Both the position numbers and the translations under genes were made by a program. Below the pieces are notes generated by a model that did no database searches, was not told the DNA's origin, and worked only from the letters and a program-made list of their open reading frames with translations. Below are positions 17,861-25,015 of a stretch of 34,153 bases of DNA, one piece after another (position 1 is the stretch's first letter; the number at the start of each line of letters is the position of its first letter). Source of the stretch: a virus; IMG/VR virus record IMGVR_UViG_3300042401_000517, positions 1 through 34,153 of that record; one strand, 5' to 3'.

Positions 17861-18316
17861 TTATTTTATTGTTAATTCCTCTTCATTTAATGCGTAATAC
17901 AAATTCTGTAATTGGTGAACGTGCTTTAAAATTAATTTAATGCCATTAAGTACAGTATAAAAATTCTCATATGCATCTAAATTAATAATTAAACAATGCT
18001 CATAATCATCTTCAATAAAACGACCGAAAACTTTACTAAATGTAGGTATATCAGATTTTTCTTCTTCAAAACCTAACTTCAACATCCATTCTTTTGTTAG
18101 TAGTATTGGTTGTATCATGTAATCGTAAATTTCATTATTATTTGAATTTTCCTCTAATGATGTTGTGCTATAACCTCCATTTACTCCATAATAACAAATA
18201 GACATATTTCCAATTCTATTGTCAACCATGTTTTTAATCTCTGTTACTTGTATAACACCAATGTCTTCTACTGAATCAAATAAATAATTCCCAATCCTTA
18301 ACTCACTTGCTTTCAT
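17861..18316 (-). CDS. Conserved phage hypothetical (RIGN...HVHQLQNLY type)
   Basis: 151 residues. Begins KASELRIGNYLFDS and ends HVHQLQNLYYALNEEELTIK, with IQPILLTKEWMLKLGFEE between. These conserved-looking blocks match a protein type I have seen widely in Flavobacterium phages and prophages. No enzymatic motif. Function unknown. Start is in the end of a small upstream gene (14-base overlap). Confidence 0.65.
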   Translation of the reverse strand: MKASELRIGNYLFDSVEDIGVIQVTEIKNMVDNRIGNMSICYYGVNGGYSTTSLEENSNNNEIYDYMIQPILLTKEWMLKLGFEEEKSDIPTFSKVFGRFIEDDYEHCLIINLDAYENFYTVLNGIKLILKHVHQLQNLYYALNEEELTIK

Positions 18317-20376: not shown

Positions 20377-20406
20377 CAAATATAAGTATTAATTATTAAT
20401 CTGCAA
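20377..20406 (-). promoter_or_regulatory. Promoter for the tRNA-like gene
   Basis: Minus strand TTG (20406-20404), 19-base spacer, TATATTTG (20384-20377): the Bacteroidota consensus with ideal spacing. Start is expected near 20370, upstream of the tRNA-like gene. Confidence 0.65.
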
Positions 20407-20662
20407 GTATTTCTTTAAATTTTTCTAAACTTTTTATTAAATAATATTTGAAGCCTTGGTCAATCAATTGCTTTTCAACGTATTGTTGTAAATGAGACTG
20501 AACTCCACGTTCCGCTTTAAATTCAACAAATACTACCTTTCCATCCTTATACATTGATAAATCAGGCCAACCATTAATATTGCAACGTACAATTTTACAA
20601 CATATCCAACCTTTTGACTTTGCATATTTAATACATTTACTTTGTAGTTCTTGTTCGCTCAT
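20396..20662 (-). CDS. VRR-NUC domain nuclease
   Basis: 88 residues, the whole chain being a VRR-NUC domain: EQELQSKCIKYAKSKGWICC, NINGWPDLSMYKDGKVVFVE with Pro33-Asp34, Glu47-Phe-Lys49 (VEFKAERG), and Gln59-Gln60. This is the PD-(D/E)XK core of standalone phage VRR-NUC proteins, some of which resolve branched DNA. It overlaps the end of the SF2 helicase by 26 bases, suggesting joint action. Confidence 0.9.
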   Translation of the reverse strand: MSEQELQSKCIKYAKSKGWICCKIVRCNINGWPDLSMYKDGKVVFVEFKAERGVQSHLQQYVEKQLIDQGFKYYLIKSLEKFKEILAD

Positions 20663-21848
20663 ATTGTTTAAGTGTAAAGTTTTTCTTTTGTGAAACTGTC
20701 TTATAAATCTTTTCGGTCAACGAATCTTTCCCAAAGATAAAAAACACATCGTTTTCTTTTCGGTCTTTCGTTGTCAATCTGTCAATTGACTGAATAAAAT
20801 TTGTCCCTGAGAATCCAAACGAGTAGAACACTAAACAATGTGCCTTACTTAAATTGATACCCATAGAGGAACTGTACTGTTGTCCAATATAATGTTTATC
20901 CGTTGTGTTAAACTCATTTAAATCGCTCGTAGAGTTAGGAAATACTAACTTCAACAACTCAAGCTCTTCAACGTAATAGTAGAATATTGCTAACTTCTTA
21001 CCCTCAAAGTAATCTCTAATAAATTCAGCTTTACGAGTATTTAAGATCATTGATTTACCCGACTCAAATTTAATAGTTCCATTCTCAAGTTGATGAACTT
21101 TCTGCATTAACTTAGCTCCCGAATCTGCTAATATTACGTTTTCTTTACCCTCAATAATTAAGTCTTTTTCTAAACGTTCAATTAAGTTTCTACATAATGT
21201 AGGGTAATAGATCACGTGTTCTTTTACTTTGCTTTCAAAACCGCTTTGTTCTTGAGTAAACTTAATAATATACGGTTGTATTACTTCGTCAATCATTGCA
21301 ATTTTTGCATCGGAATAGTCGTTAATCATTGCATATCCCATATTCTTTTGTTTCACATTTACGAATGTTTTTGACCACTTGTAGAAGTTAACGTCTTTGA
21401 ATGGTGAATAAGAACTAACCCAAAACTGGTGGTACATTTGAGAATAACTTTCGGATGCTGGTGTACCGCTTAAAAATATCATTGGTACACGTGAATACTT
21501 AAATTTAAATTCTTTTACTCGTTTTGATGGTTTCGGAAATGCTCCGAACCTATGGTGTTCATCGTGGATTATTAAATCGAAGTTTCCTTCGATATTAGCT
21601 AATTGCTCATCGTTTGTAACTGTTAGATTGAACGTATAACCAAAGTTCTTGTAATCGCTTTCAATCGAGCTTATAGCTTTCTTTTTAGTTAGGAATAGAA
21701 CGTTGTTAGCTCCGTATAGTTTAGCTGTTTCTAAAGACGTTAAAGTTTTACCGCAGCGTGGCTCCATCATTAGGTAAACTATTTTCTTTTCTTTGAGAAT
21801 ACCGCACGCTTTTTGCGATATCTCAGTTTGGTAATCTCTTAAAATCAT
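20637..21848 (-). CDS. SF2 DNA helicase (DEAD/DEAH-like)
   Basis: 403 residues. Motif Q-type start LRDYQTEISQ, Walker A EPRCGKT (29-35), motif II HDEHH (95-99), motif III SGTP (127-130), and a C-terminal RecA lobe ending with FGFSGTNFIQSIDRLTTKDR (motif VI-like). It is shorter than SNF2 proteins and matches compact phage helicases. It lies between primase and VRR-NUC and is coupled to the primase by ATGA, so it probably unwinds or remodels replication intermediates. Confidence 0.87.
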   Translation of the reverse strand: MILRDYQTEISQKACGILKEKKIVYLMMEPRCGKTLTSLETAKLYGANNVLFLTKKKAISSIESDYKNFGYTFNLTVTNDEQLANIEGNFDLIIHDEHHRFGAFPKPSKRVKEFKFKYSRVPMIFLSGTPASESYSQMYHQFWVSSYSPFKDVNFYKWSKTFVNVKQKNMGYAMINDYSDAKIAMIDEVIQPYIIKFTQEQSGFESKVKEHVIYYPTLCRNLIERLEKDLIIEGKENVILADSGAKLMQKVHQLENGTIKFESGKSMILNTRKAEFIRDYFEGKKLAIFYYYVEELELLKLVFPNSTSDLNEFNTTDKHYIGQQYSSSMGINLSKAHCLVFYSFGFSGTNFIQSIDRLTTKDRKENDVFFIFGKDSLTEKIYKTVSQKKNFTLKQYERTRTTK

Positions 21849-24067
21849 TCGTCTAATTTTTTAATCCATTCATAAATAGTTTTTCTACTTACACCCAATA
21901 ATTCAGCTAATTCTTTTTTATTAAAGTCTGGGTTTAATTTATAAGCTTCTATAACCGTCTCTTTTTTAGATTTCGTTTTATTGTTAGTAATAACTTGTTT
22001 TAATTCTCCTACTTCAACACTATCAATTTTAATCTTTTTAGCCATATTAATAAAGTATTTACTTAATTTCTCAGCAGCTAACATTGACTCCTTTGATATT
22101 ACAAACATACTTTTTGATGTTCCCTCGTGTGCGTATAAAACATTTAACATTAATGCAAACCTTGGTATATATGATTTTTGTTTAGGCAACATACTTTTCA
22201 TATATTCATTTTCAACATCTGAATTTTGAATAGTTGTAATTTCTTTATCGATTCTTATATACTCACTTTTAGCTTCAGGACTTAATAATGCAACATGTGA
22301 AATTATTTCATCGTCTGCATCTTTTAGCAAATATTCTTTTTTTATCTTATCGTAAAAATTTAAAATATAGCTGTTATACCATTCGTGTACCTCTTCATCC
22401 ATTTCAGCATCGCTAAATTCTTCAATCTTCACGTCTGGGTAACAAGTTAGCATCCTGTCTACAAATCCATTATCCTTATTCTCAGCGCTGAAAAAACCAT
22501 TTAAAATCCCTGGCTGTATACCTCCTAAAACTGGGATAATAGGACTTTCAATAAAAGCATTTTTTGATGTTCTTCTGTTAAGTGAAACCCCCTTGTTTGA
22601 CCATGTAGACAACCAAAACTCTAAATCAGAACCTGCTCGATATTTATTCATATCTTTTAACCAACCTGACAACTCATCTTTAAACACACCAATAGAGTTT
22701 TTATTTTCTGAATGTAAATCAATAAGGGCTTCAAGTGTAATATCGTTTGCTATAAATTGTGTTTTTTTAGGTTGTTTTTGTTCTTCAACACGTTCCTTTT
22801 CTTTTTTATCTAATTCTTGATATTTTTCAAAGGCAGTCATTTTTTTAATATAGTTCTTTATCTCATTACTATTCGCTTTGTGTAATGGAAAAATAACGTT
22901 TTCAATATTTGGTGTTTTACCAACCCCAGGTTTACCCACTAAAGCTAACCATAAATTAACAGATTCAATCCAACCTGTTTTTACTTGTACTTTCATAGAA
23001 TTTCCAATAATAACAGAAAGAACCCACATAAACGCACAACCCATATAATCTATTGAACTGTTTAACGTTCTGTTACATTCTAACAAATAGTTTTTAATGT
23101 TATCAGGATAAATATCCAAAGGAAAAGTTAAATCTTCTTGATTTATTACAACCTCTTTTCTTATAGATTCAACTTCTTTTACTATTCTACTTCCATAACC
23201 TTTTTTATATAGCTCACTTGCTGACTCTGTATAGTCTCCATTATGATACTTGATAGTATATAAATTAAATGGACTTAACAACTTTTCATTTGGGTACATT
23301 GTCCCTGTTGAAAATAGAAATAAACACCCTGTATTTTTAAATACATATCCTGAATGTGGACTTGTTGCCCCGTGTCTTTTAATTACATACGAGTTTTGTG
23401 TATTTCTAACTATTGTAAATTCATCATCAATAATATCAAATACTGAATGTTTATTATTATAATCCTCCCACGGTGTGATTTCATTTTTTATAATGTATTC
23501 AGACTTTTTAGGTAGCTCTATTGTTTTCGGGTCTTTATAATCATAAGTTTTAGAAATTGACCAAATAATATCTCTCTCCTCTTCAGTGATATAATCTATT
23601 TGGTGATATTCTTTTTCAGTTAGAAAGTTATCGTATATGATAACAAACCCACCTGTACCCCTTGTTTCAATTATTGCCTCTGTCATACCTTCAAGCTTTG
23701 CTATTTTGGTATTTCCAACAATTGTTTTAGACTTGTAAAGAATATGATAACCACCTTTTTGAGTTTTAGATATTACTACCTTATCCATAAAGTCCTCTAT
23801 ATTATCACAAAGGAATGCAAGGTATTCATCCCACCACTCTTTTTTTTCTGTTACAGTATGTAAAACTTTTAAATCTATATCTATAACCTCTAAATCATTA
23901 AAACCTGTTACAAGTCCGTATTTAGGGCAATTTAAAAGTTCTATTTGTTCTGTATCTCTTTTAGATGTTTGGTAATCCTTCCAAGTTCCTATTGGTCTTT
24001 TATCTTCATCACAAGGAATAATACTAAAACCAATTGAAGAAAGTTTTTTCAAATATTCTTTAATCAT
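21845..24067 (-). CDS. Prim-pol / DUF3987 primase-helicase
   Basis: 740 residues. N-terminal AEP prim-pol domain (about 1-180): GFSIIPCDEDKRPIGTWKDY, Asp63-Ile-Asp65 (VIDIDLK), His108 (GGYHILYK). Middle: DUF3987-like ATPase with Walker A GKPGVGKT (378-385) and an acidic motif VFKDELSGWLKDMNKYRAGS. C-terminus: a helix-turn-helix (KKELAELLGVSRKTIYEWIK, about 717-736) that may bind origin DNA. Probable replication initiator, near the iteron-like region. Coupled to both neighbours by ATGA. Confidence 0.85.
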   Translation of the reverse strand: MIKEYLKKLSSIGFSIIPCDEDKRPIGTWKDYQTSKRDTEQIELLNCPKYGLVTGFNDLEVIDIDLKVLHTVTEKKEWWDEYLAFLCDNIEDFMDKVVISKTQKGGYHILYKSKTIVGNTKIAKLEGMTEAIIETRGTGGFVIIYDNFLTEKEYHQIDYITEEERDIIWSISKTYDYKDPKTIELPKKSEYIIKNEITPWEDYNNKHSVFDIIDDEFTIVRNTQNSYVIKRHGATSPHSGYVFKNTGCLFLFSTGTMYPNEKLLSPFNLYTIKYHNGDYTESASELYKKGYGSRIVKEVESIRKEVVINQEDLTFPLDIYPDNIKNYLLECNRTLNSSIDYMGCAFMWVLSVIIGNSMKVQVKTGWIESVNLWLALVGKPGVGKTPNIENVIFPLHKANSNEIKNYIKKMTAFEKYQELDKKEKERVEEQKQPKKTQFIANDITLEALIDLHSENKNSIGVFKDELSGWLKDMNKYRAGSDLEFWLSTWSNKGVSLNRRTSKNAFIESPIIPVLGGIQPGILNGFFSAENKDNGFVDRMLTCYPDVKIEEFSDAEMDEEVHEWYNSYILNFYDKIKKEYLLKDADDEIISHVALLSPEAKSEYIRIDKEITTIQNSDVENEYMKSMLPKQKSYIPRFALMLNVLYAHEGTSKSMFVISKESMLAAEKLSKYFINMAKKIKIDSVEVGELKQVITNNKTKSKKETVIEAYKLNPDFNKKELAELLGVSRKTIYEWIKKLDE

Positions 24068-24372
24068 AGCTCTATGGTTTTACTTCTTTTGTGATATACT
24101 CTATAAATATCTTCATATGTTTCAGCAAGTTTATTTTTAAAGACAACTTTATTTACTATTTTAGAAATGTTAAAGTCATAGTTAACACCATATTTTCTTT
24201 TTTCAAATCCTAATTCAGTCATTACGTCAATTATTTCTTGATTAGAAACGTAAACACCAATTGAACTCTCGCAAATATGTTTTAAACTATAAGAACCTGG
24301 AGCATTTGAATTAACGTTTTTAGTTCTTGTAAGGGCATTTTCTACCCATTTTTTAATGTATTCTTTTTTCAT
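24064..24372 (-). CDS. Hypothetical protein before the primase
   Basis: 102 residues, MKKEYIKKWVENALTRTKNV..., basic. SYSLKHICESSIGVYVSNQE and IIDVMTELGFEKRKYGVNYD suggest a small winged-helix-like alpha/beta fold. Coupled to the primase by ATGA. An accessory replication role is plausible; no family recognised. Confidence 0.55.
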   Translation of the reverse strand: MKKEYIKKWVENALTRTKNVNSNAPGSYSLKHICESSIGVYVSNQEIIDVMTELGFEKRKYGVNYDFNISKIVNKVVFKNKLAETYEDIYRVYHKRSKTIEL

Positions 24373-24376
24373 AATA

Positions 24377-24580
24377 TTAAATTGTTGTTACAAATATATA
24401 CTCTAAATCTAACCAATCATTTTTGGATATTTTAATAACCTTCAGTACTTCATCATTAAAATCAAAAGTGTCTTTCAGATTAATTTCTCCAAGACTTTCA
24501 CCTACAGGATTAACTTTCAGATTATCTACGTTAATCATAAGCCTTTGTAATTCCCCTTTTCTTTCTTTAAACTTTTCCAT
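24377..24580 (-). CDS. Hypothetical protein, first gene after the leader RNA
   Basis: 67 residues, MEKFKERKGELQRLMINVDN..., alpha/beta, soluble. First gene of the replication operon, 41 bases after the leader hairpin ends, so its expression is the most exposed to any control by that leader. Function unknown. Confidence 0.6.
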   Translation of the reverse strand: MEKFKERKGELQRLMINVDNLKVNPVGESLGEINLKDTFDFNDEVLKVIKISKNDWLDLEYIFVTTI

Positions 24581-24614: not shown

Positions 24615-24703
24615 AAAAAAGCCCATCAAAATGCAGAGGTCGGAATTTCTACAAGTTGATGGGCAAATGTCCTTTGTGTTTAATATGGTTTCCGACCTAA
24701 CAC
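24615..24703 (-). ncRNA. Pseudoknot leader RNA with terminator-like end
   Basis: On the minus strand, from the promoter: AGGTCGGAA (24698-24690), GCCCATCAA (24664-24656), TTCCGACCT (24645-24637), TTGATGGGC (24629-24621), then TTTTTT. The order A-B-A'-B' with two perfect 9-bp helices is an H-type pseudoknot. The second helix plus the T run looks like an intrinsic terminator. The result is an approximately 80-nt leader or small RNA. I do not recognise it as a known family. Confidence 0.65.
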
Positions 24704-24707
24704 ATTG

Positions 24708-24715
24708 CAAATATA
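24708..24715 (-). promoter_or_regulatory. Promoter -7 element of the replication operon
   Basis: Minus strand TATATTTG followed by CAATG matches TAnnTTTG. No exact TTG is at the ideal distance, so the upstream element is weak. It would start transcription around 24,702-24,699, right before the leader RNA. Confidence 0.55.
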
Positions 24716-24784: not shown

Positions 24785-24987
24785 ATTACATTAAAGCAAA
24801 TAGTGTTACATTTTACCCTATGTTACATTCCGAGTGTCACCTAAAATGTTACACTACTTTTCAGTGTTTATGGGGGTTTAAGGCTAAGGTTACATGTTAC
24901 CTTTGTTTTTTCAATTTTTAAAAATTTTATTTAATATTTTTTATTTTTCAGTGTGTAACCCTAAATGTTACAGTGACATGTTACACA
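24785..24987. other. Iteron-like repeats / candidate replication origin
   Basis: TGTTACA occurs at 24804, 24821, 24847, 24966 and 24979, with near copies GGTTACA at 24888, TGTTACC at 24895 and an inverted TGTAACC at 24954. TGTGTAAC (24952-24959) and GTTACACA (24980-24987) form an 8-bp inverted pair. An AT-rich stretch at about 24903-24949 splits the array and could unwind. No gene is present in this 300-base stretch. It lies directly before the primase operon. Origin or operator function is inference. Confidence 0.55.
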
Positions 24988-25015
24988 TAAAAAAACCGAC
25001 TTGTTAGGTCGGTTT
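24988..25015 (-). terminator. Intrinsic terminator of the accessory operon
   Basis: Minus strand AAACCGAC, loop CTAACAA, GTCGGTTT, then TTTTTT: an 8-bp stem (25015-25008 with 25000-24993) and T run, directly after the secreted 153-residue protein gene. Its loop and 5' arm are complementary to the start of the leader RNA 300 bases further on. Confidence 0.88.

Follow-up and report, generated by a model that had tools for sequence, protein, structure and literature searches.

The phage operon analysed here appears to be headed by a cis-acting 5' leader of about 90 nt that works as an RNA-structured attenuator, the terminator of which docks onto another hairpin of the same transcript; we give this reading a probability of roughly 0.6. 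The element occupies positions 24615–24703, on the minus strand, of the window, i.e. the whole 34,153-nt stretch of viral DNA that was analysed (IMG/VR record IMGVR_UViG_3300042401_000517), and stands in front of a replication operon of a Bacteroidota phage. This small leader RNA probably switches phage replication on and off in a way that has not been described before. Sequence comparison shows directly how it folds and covaries, that it stands between a promoter and a start codon, and that it closes with a U-run.

The minus strand of the window contains, exactly as the first-pass annotation had described, two perfect 9-bp helices interleaved in the order A-B-A'-B' and followed by T6. Strand A (AGGTCGGAA, 24690–24698) is the perfect complement of A' (TTCCGACCT, 24637–24645), and B (GCCCATCAA, 24656–24664) that of B' (TTGATGGGC, 24621–24629), behind which lies the T6 tract (24615–24620), the predicted termination site, where a T-run also adjoins the stem in relatives. 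Two further parts of the structure, a hairpin around A (H1) and the inner stem of a second hairpin (H2), had been overlooked. In the MFE fold of the leader (z = -3.1), H1 spans 24703–24676, with the arms GTGTT (24699–24703) and AACAC (24676–24680) and with A inside its loop. An A-rich linker (24665–24675), which resembles that of relatives, separates it from H2, an extended terminator hairpin made of B/B' and of the inner stem TGTAGA (24648–24653) with TCTGCA (24632–24637; position 24637 is shared with A'). The GU pair of this inner stem is A-U in the relatives L005, L093 and L102. The A:A' helix thus joins the H1 loop, which contains A, to the apical loop of H2, which contains A', and the fold is of the loop–loop (kissing) type. 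Thus, the interleaved helices of the proposed pseudoknot are real, but the simple pseudoknot is not, since the H1 loop kisses the apical loop of the terminator; nor is the fold of the H-type, A itself being within a covarying hairpin loop. The B/B' stem is G+C-rich and runs directly into the U-run, as in an intrinsic terminator. A simple terminator scan of the window did not report it, because the scan accepts loops of 3–8 only and this stem is interrupted and longer-looped.

Directly upstream lies a Bacteroidota-type -7 promoter box (TATATTTG, 24708–24715) of the TAnnTTTG consensus, in agreement with the earlier statement that the unit follows a promoter. In Flavobacterium psychrophilum, this box is found at -12 to -5 (PMC9723704), which places the predicted +1 of the window at 24703, the first base of H1 and the very coordinate at which the annotated unit began; the spacing of the H1 core in relatives indicates the same position. 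The first ATG of the transcription unit is at 24580, 40 nt beyond B'. The genes of the unit, all on the minus strand, code for a 67-aa protein without family match (24377–24580; relatives in L003–L005), a 102-aa protein of unknown function (24064–24372), a Prim-Pol + DUF3987 primase-helicase with a C-terminal HTH (21845–24067; Pfam PF09250 and PF13148, PHROG helicase and primase), a ResIII helicase (20637–21848; Pfam and PHROGs) and an endonuclease or resolvase-like protein (20396–20662; PHROGs). The terminator-like end is therefore situated, as had been proposed, at the head of a primase/helicase unit. Since the upstream module ends in an ordinary intrinsic terminator detected by the terminator scan (24993–25015, minus strand), the replication genes form a unit of their own.

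Just upstream of the leader promoter, at 24798–24900, the window also carries repeated words (TGTTACATT and GTTACATTTTAC) together with an 18-nt inverted repeat, a weak iteron- or operator-like array. Stronger arrays composed of other words occupy the same place in relatives (nine copies of ATGTTACAC in L082, seven of GGTGTGAAA in L055, seven of GGTTTAAAA in L129, six of AGTGTAACC in L036 and five of ATGTCCCAC in L013); the C-terminal HTH of the primase might bind them. Six relatives (L013, L015, L016, L017, L031 and L033) have no RNA leader: their promoter box lies nearly at the primase ATG, several of them carry repeat arrays, and they look as if a DNA operator had taken the place of the RNA.

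A search with the primase identified 401 relatives in IMG/VR, 80 of which were retrieved. Scanning of the primase relatives for the arrangement A-B-A'-B'-T behind a promoter box, at a score of 38 or more, gave 57 matches on the operon strand and 5 on the opposite strand; the minus-strand matches inspected proved to be either A/T-rich repeats or the copy in the window itself. The letters of the stems differ wholly between phages and the layout is constant. A descriptor of the architecture was noisy without the promoter and was applied only together with the box; in this form it found 21 matches in pieces of 20 phage records, compared with 0.67 in the same amount of dinucleotide-shuffled sequence, and 17–18 of the 21 were judged genuine by eye, the genuine ones being followed closely by an ORF of the same orientation. 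The strict scan finds the element in 38 of 73 primase relatives, some of the misses being weak versions; with about half of the relatives lacking it by this measure, the element is dispensable or replaceable. Searches with the exact pattern of the window helices alone returned mostly chance matches in coding sequence and two real ones, and a second scan match in the window, near 18,040 on the minus strand, was discarded as A/T-rich, coding-like sequence.

The kissing contact was tested by a blind search. The tip of H2 in many relatives has the form AGTAGAG-N8-CTCGAAAG, which reads as a three-pair stem over a loop-E-like AGUA/GAA internal motif. IMG/VR was scanned for GAGTAGAGN8CTCGAAAG, a pattern that covers part of H2 only and leaves the loop unconstrained, and 78 contigs with 54 non-redundant sites were obtained. 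The exact complement of the 7-nt loop was present in the loop of an upstream hairpin at 52 of the 54 sites, as against a mean of 6.7 and a maximum of 15 when the loops were permuted among sites (1000 permutations); the other two sites have no other feature of the element and look like chance matches. Thirteen different kissing 7-mers occur, each with its exact partner. In 47 distinct but related sequences, which were picked from the 54 using the exact complement and in which the search pattern itself dictated the inner stem, two-sided changes affect 19 of 22 pairs, including 4/4 in H1, 7/7 in the kissing helix and 8/8 in the terminator stem. In the same set, 99.2% of cells are paired, compared with 75.5% after shuffling and at most 41.2% when the columns are slid by 1–3, and the covariation score is 0.618 (0.158 shuffled). 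As to a metabolite riboswitch, for which conserved binding-pocket nucleotides would be expected in all members, conservation of the AGUA/GAA letters is confined to one sub-class, owing to the way in which it was collected, and other sub-classes differ.

Compensatory changes in both helices, the check that the first-pass annotation had suggested, are found among close relatives in the window's own sub-class: L005 has AGGTCGCA/TGCGACCT and GCCCGTCAA/TTGACGGGC, the latter in the terminator stem, and L007 has AGATCTCA/TGAGATCT and GCCCTGTCAA/TTGACAGGGC. The covariance model of the loop-E class gives no score to the window's own copy, and kinship of the two groups is suggested by their common architecture.

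Interleaved helices could also constitute a true switch, in which A:A' would form first as an open antiterminator helix that excludes H1 and the terminator, B:B' would then displace it, and the balance between the helices, not a working kissing complex, would be the control. Folding of growing 5' fragments of the window leader is compatible with such a course: A:A' is the MFE structure at 67–78 nt (-13.6 to -16.5 kcal/mol), and H1 + H2 prevail only once B' has emerged (-22 to -26.4 kcal/mol), in nested-only folding with a model that does not allow for pseudoknots. However, an open A:A' helix would break H1, which is conserved and covaries at all four of its pairs, and in the loop-E class it is weak (-7.1 vs -13.0 for H2). 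Conservation also extends to the internal motif and to the inner stem that closes the apical loop; as both lie between B and the kissing loop, the two helices fit one joint fold. We therefore consider a switch unlikely, and retain the self-docked attenuator. Kinetic competition between A:A' and the terminator, with A:A' as a folding intermediate, is possible according to the same calculations.

The position of the loop-E elements relative to promoter and gene bears on what the docked fold does. The box TAnnTTT[GA] stands upstream of 43 of 51 elements (3.6% of random positions), and in 39 of the 43 the H1 core lies 4–5 nt past it, i.e. at +1/+2. Of the 51 elements, 47 (48 if L230, assigned by eye, is counted) have a T-run of four or more where the stem ends, compared with 7.4% of random windows; among the three roles that had been offered, namely attenuator, small regulatory RNA and copy control, it is the attenuator that this arrangement fits best, the other two having no direct support. 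The ATG follows the stem and T-run at 5–44 nt, a distance that varies while the T-run stays on the stem. T5 or longer runs precede 34 of 40 leadered genes, compared with 5.9% of the remaining ORFs of these loci. Initiation in Flavobacterium is favoured by adenines at -3, -12 and -13 and not by uridines (PMC6847099), so that a terminator accounts better for the U-run.

Translation could nevertheless be the target, as H2 often ends 5–15 nt before the ATG. The docked fold would then protect the 5' end of the mRNA or gate ribosome entry, the U-run being a spacer through which transcription continues. The start of H1 at +1 agrees with a 5' cap, the base of H2 lies at a median of 14 nt before the ATG, in the zone where structure affects initiation in Flavobacterium (PMC6847099), and a few copies have broken T-runs. 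Control of this kind seems improbable, given that the T-runs are tied to the stem instead of to a fixed distance from the ATG and that they are rare before other genes; termination thus remains the preferred outcome of the fold. It may not be universal, considering that the T-run is broken in three or four loop-E elements (L217, L250, L111 and perhaps L230) and reduced to T3 in some primase-linked ones (L030, L034). The kissing fold is intact in spite of the broken T-run at L111:6996–7081, L250:2777–2862 and L217:1907–1987, the first two of which lie 5' of homing-endonuclease-like genes, and these copies may reveal the role of the fold without a terminator.

Dozens of environmental phages share the architecture, as do three of the six cultured Flavobacteriia phages examined. 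It precedes the 'replication protein' gene of Polaribacter phage P12002L, an HNH gene of Flavobacterium columnare phage FCV-1, and in Flavobacterium phage mumin9-1 both an HNH gene and gp037, which heads the helicase/VapE genes; no copy was seen in Cellulophaga phi46:1, in Polaribacter Leef_1 or in the first 40 kb of Cellulophaga phi38:1. Among 395 Bacteroidota genomes, a single occurrence of the pattern was recorded, in a Psychroflexus MAG; the contig concerned is phage-like and encodes the primase as well. Covariance-model searches of host genomes yielded no further chromosomal copy, which is a weak negative, few candidates having been scored per genome. As far as seen, this is a phage element. 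Nucleotide similarity searches of phages and plasmids returned no match.

The genes behind the leaders include Prim-Pol/DUF3987 primases, a VapE-like primase of 799 aa, replisome organisers and DnaD-like helicase loaders, but also NUMOD4-HNH, GIY-YIG and NUMOD3 homing endonucleases, small lipoprotein-like genes and short unknowns. Consequently, the designation as a replication-operon leader is correct for the window but is not specific to such operons, the module being found at the head of homing-endonuclease genes and of further early genes as well. There is no homology between the first genes behind the leaders, which makes autoregulation by the first gene product unlikely, and they share no common metabolite pathway. 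Their range suggests that homing endonucleases have adopted the regulation used by replication genes. In close relatives of the window, endonuclease genes with their own promoter and kissing leader (L003:7844, L003:9672, L006:3439 and L008:6811) lie 3' of the primase or of the next genes; no such endonuclease leader was found at the corresponding places of the window. In a sub-type observed at L199:1507–1594, L204:8470–8557, L243:7604–7691 and L255:5469–5556, an inserted GCCGAAAGGC hairpin precedes H1, which thereby loses its 5'-terminal position.

A structured RNA immediately behind a promoter also recalls the HK022 put site, and the fold could in principle be loaded onto the polymerase near the promoter as a cis antiterminator giving read-through of later terminators. 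This is hardly credible for an element which itself ends in a terminator-like U-run and whose homing-endonuclease copies precede single genes.

The kissing letters are highly variable. Between phages whose replisome organisers differ at about 3% of codon positions 1+2, they differ at 24–26% of sites, compared with 0% in the H1 stem and 3–6% in the terminator stem, and their pairing is always exact. Such a pattern, together with the location at the head of a replication operon, would be expected if the released leader acted in trans on nascent leaders, as P4 CI RNA or ColE1 RNAI does, and if the kissing letters served as a specificity code for copy control or superinfection immunity. There is one copy of the loop-E type per phage genome (one contig bears another at the opposite end), and satellite phage P4 offers a precedent (PMC4825925). 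However, variation in the kissing letters is no greater than in the neutral flanks of the leader, and kissing alleles tend to carry their own linker in front of different genes. Diversifying selection on these letters was accordingly dropped as an explanation: a neutral rate of change and travel with linker haplotypes are accounted for by recombination. In addition, no antisense transcript is predicted, the homing-endonuclease copies do not fit immunity, and the cis partner, found at 52 of the 54 sites, is always available nearby in high concentration. Copy-number control is thus possible but not favoured, and we regard it as very unlikely. We read the variation as recombination of whole leader cassettes, with constraint on pairing only, while selection for distinct codes is possible. 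A more tentative extension is that promoter, 5' hairpin and self-docking terminator form a transferable phage RNA cassette which moves between replication genes, homing endonucleases and phages, each allele having its own matched code, with control that is private to the gene and requires no dedicated protein, and which possibly separates co-infecting phages.

Under the attenuator reading, H1 would fold upon leaving the polymerase because it begins at +1, and its loop would capture the apical loop of H2 through a kissing helix of 7–9 bp, a contact that the internal AGUA/GAA (loop-E-like) or a tandem G-A motif would organise in many relatives. H2 would close directly before the U-run, so that a share of the transcripts would end before the first gene. 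We infer that transcription stops in the T-run and that the kissing contact promotes, and does not impede, the terminator; the contact would set the speed or the firmness of terminator formation and thereby the output of primase, helicase loader or homing endonuclease. Termination would presumably be relieved under some condition of the host or the phage. The trigger is unlikely to be simple feedback by the first product, the first genes being unrelated.

If this is correct, the phages of Flavobacteriia and other Bacteroidota, in which gene control is little known, possess a well-defined class of structured RNA with strong covariation, and the element marks the start of replication transcription units. 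The model can be tested in cultured phages, namely mumin9-1, P12002L and FCV-1, and the modular, orthogonal loop pairs could serve as designed attenuators in Bacteroidota.

The earlier failure to recognise a known RNA family is borne out: neither the window nor any of 14 loci carrying the element reaches the gathering cut-off of an Rfam 15 family, permissive scans gave matches at chance level only, and the C4 covariance model matched neither the window nor the 14 loci. Literature searches, for which subscription papers were mostly outside reach, found no description of such an element. We class it among the leader attenuators, a known kind, with a kissing architecture that we did not find described. 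SAM-II, preQ1-I and ribosomal protein leaders are 5' leader pseudoknots controlling the gene behind them, and keep a conserved ligand or protein site; here, in contrast, the helix letters are free, only pairing is kept and the first genes are mixed. ColE1-type RNAI/RNAII form a 7-bp loop–loop helix in replication control, but there two antisense RNAs meet, whereas here one RNA kisses itself and carries the terminator. The HK022 put RNA, structured and placed behind a phage early promoter, suppresses downstream terminators, while the window element ends in one. The C4 antisense RNA of P1/P7 (Rfam RF01695) is a small structured phage RNA that acts through loop complementarity. It occurs in Proteobacteria and their phages (PMC2864571, Table 1). 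The STAXI motif of Enterobacteriales, a pseudoknot near DNA-handling genes, comes as a tandem of 2–3 copies (PMC2864571), unlike the single kissing-loop unit with promoter and terminator described here. By analogy, the nearest functional precedent is satellite phage P4, where RNA–RNA pairing in the leader of the replication operon leads to premature termination (PMC4825925). In P4, a processed antisense-type RNA, CI RNA, pairs in trans with two leader sites, seqA and seqC, whereas in the present element a single 90-nt leader supplies both partners as loops, the second of them being the terminator itself.
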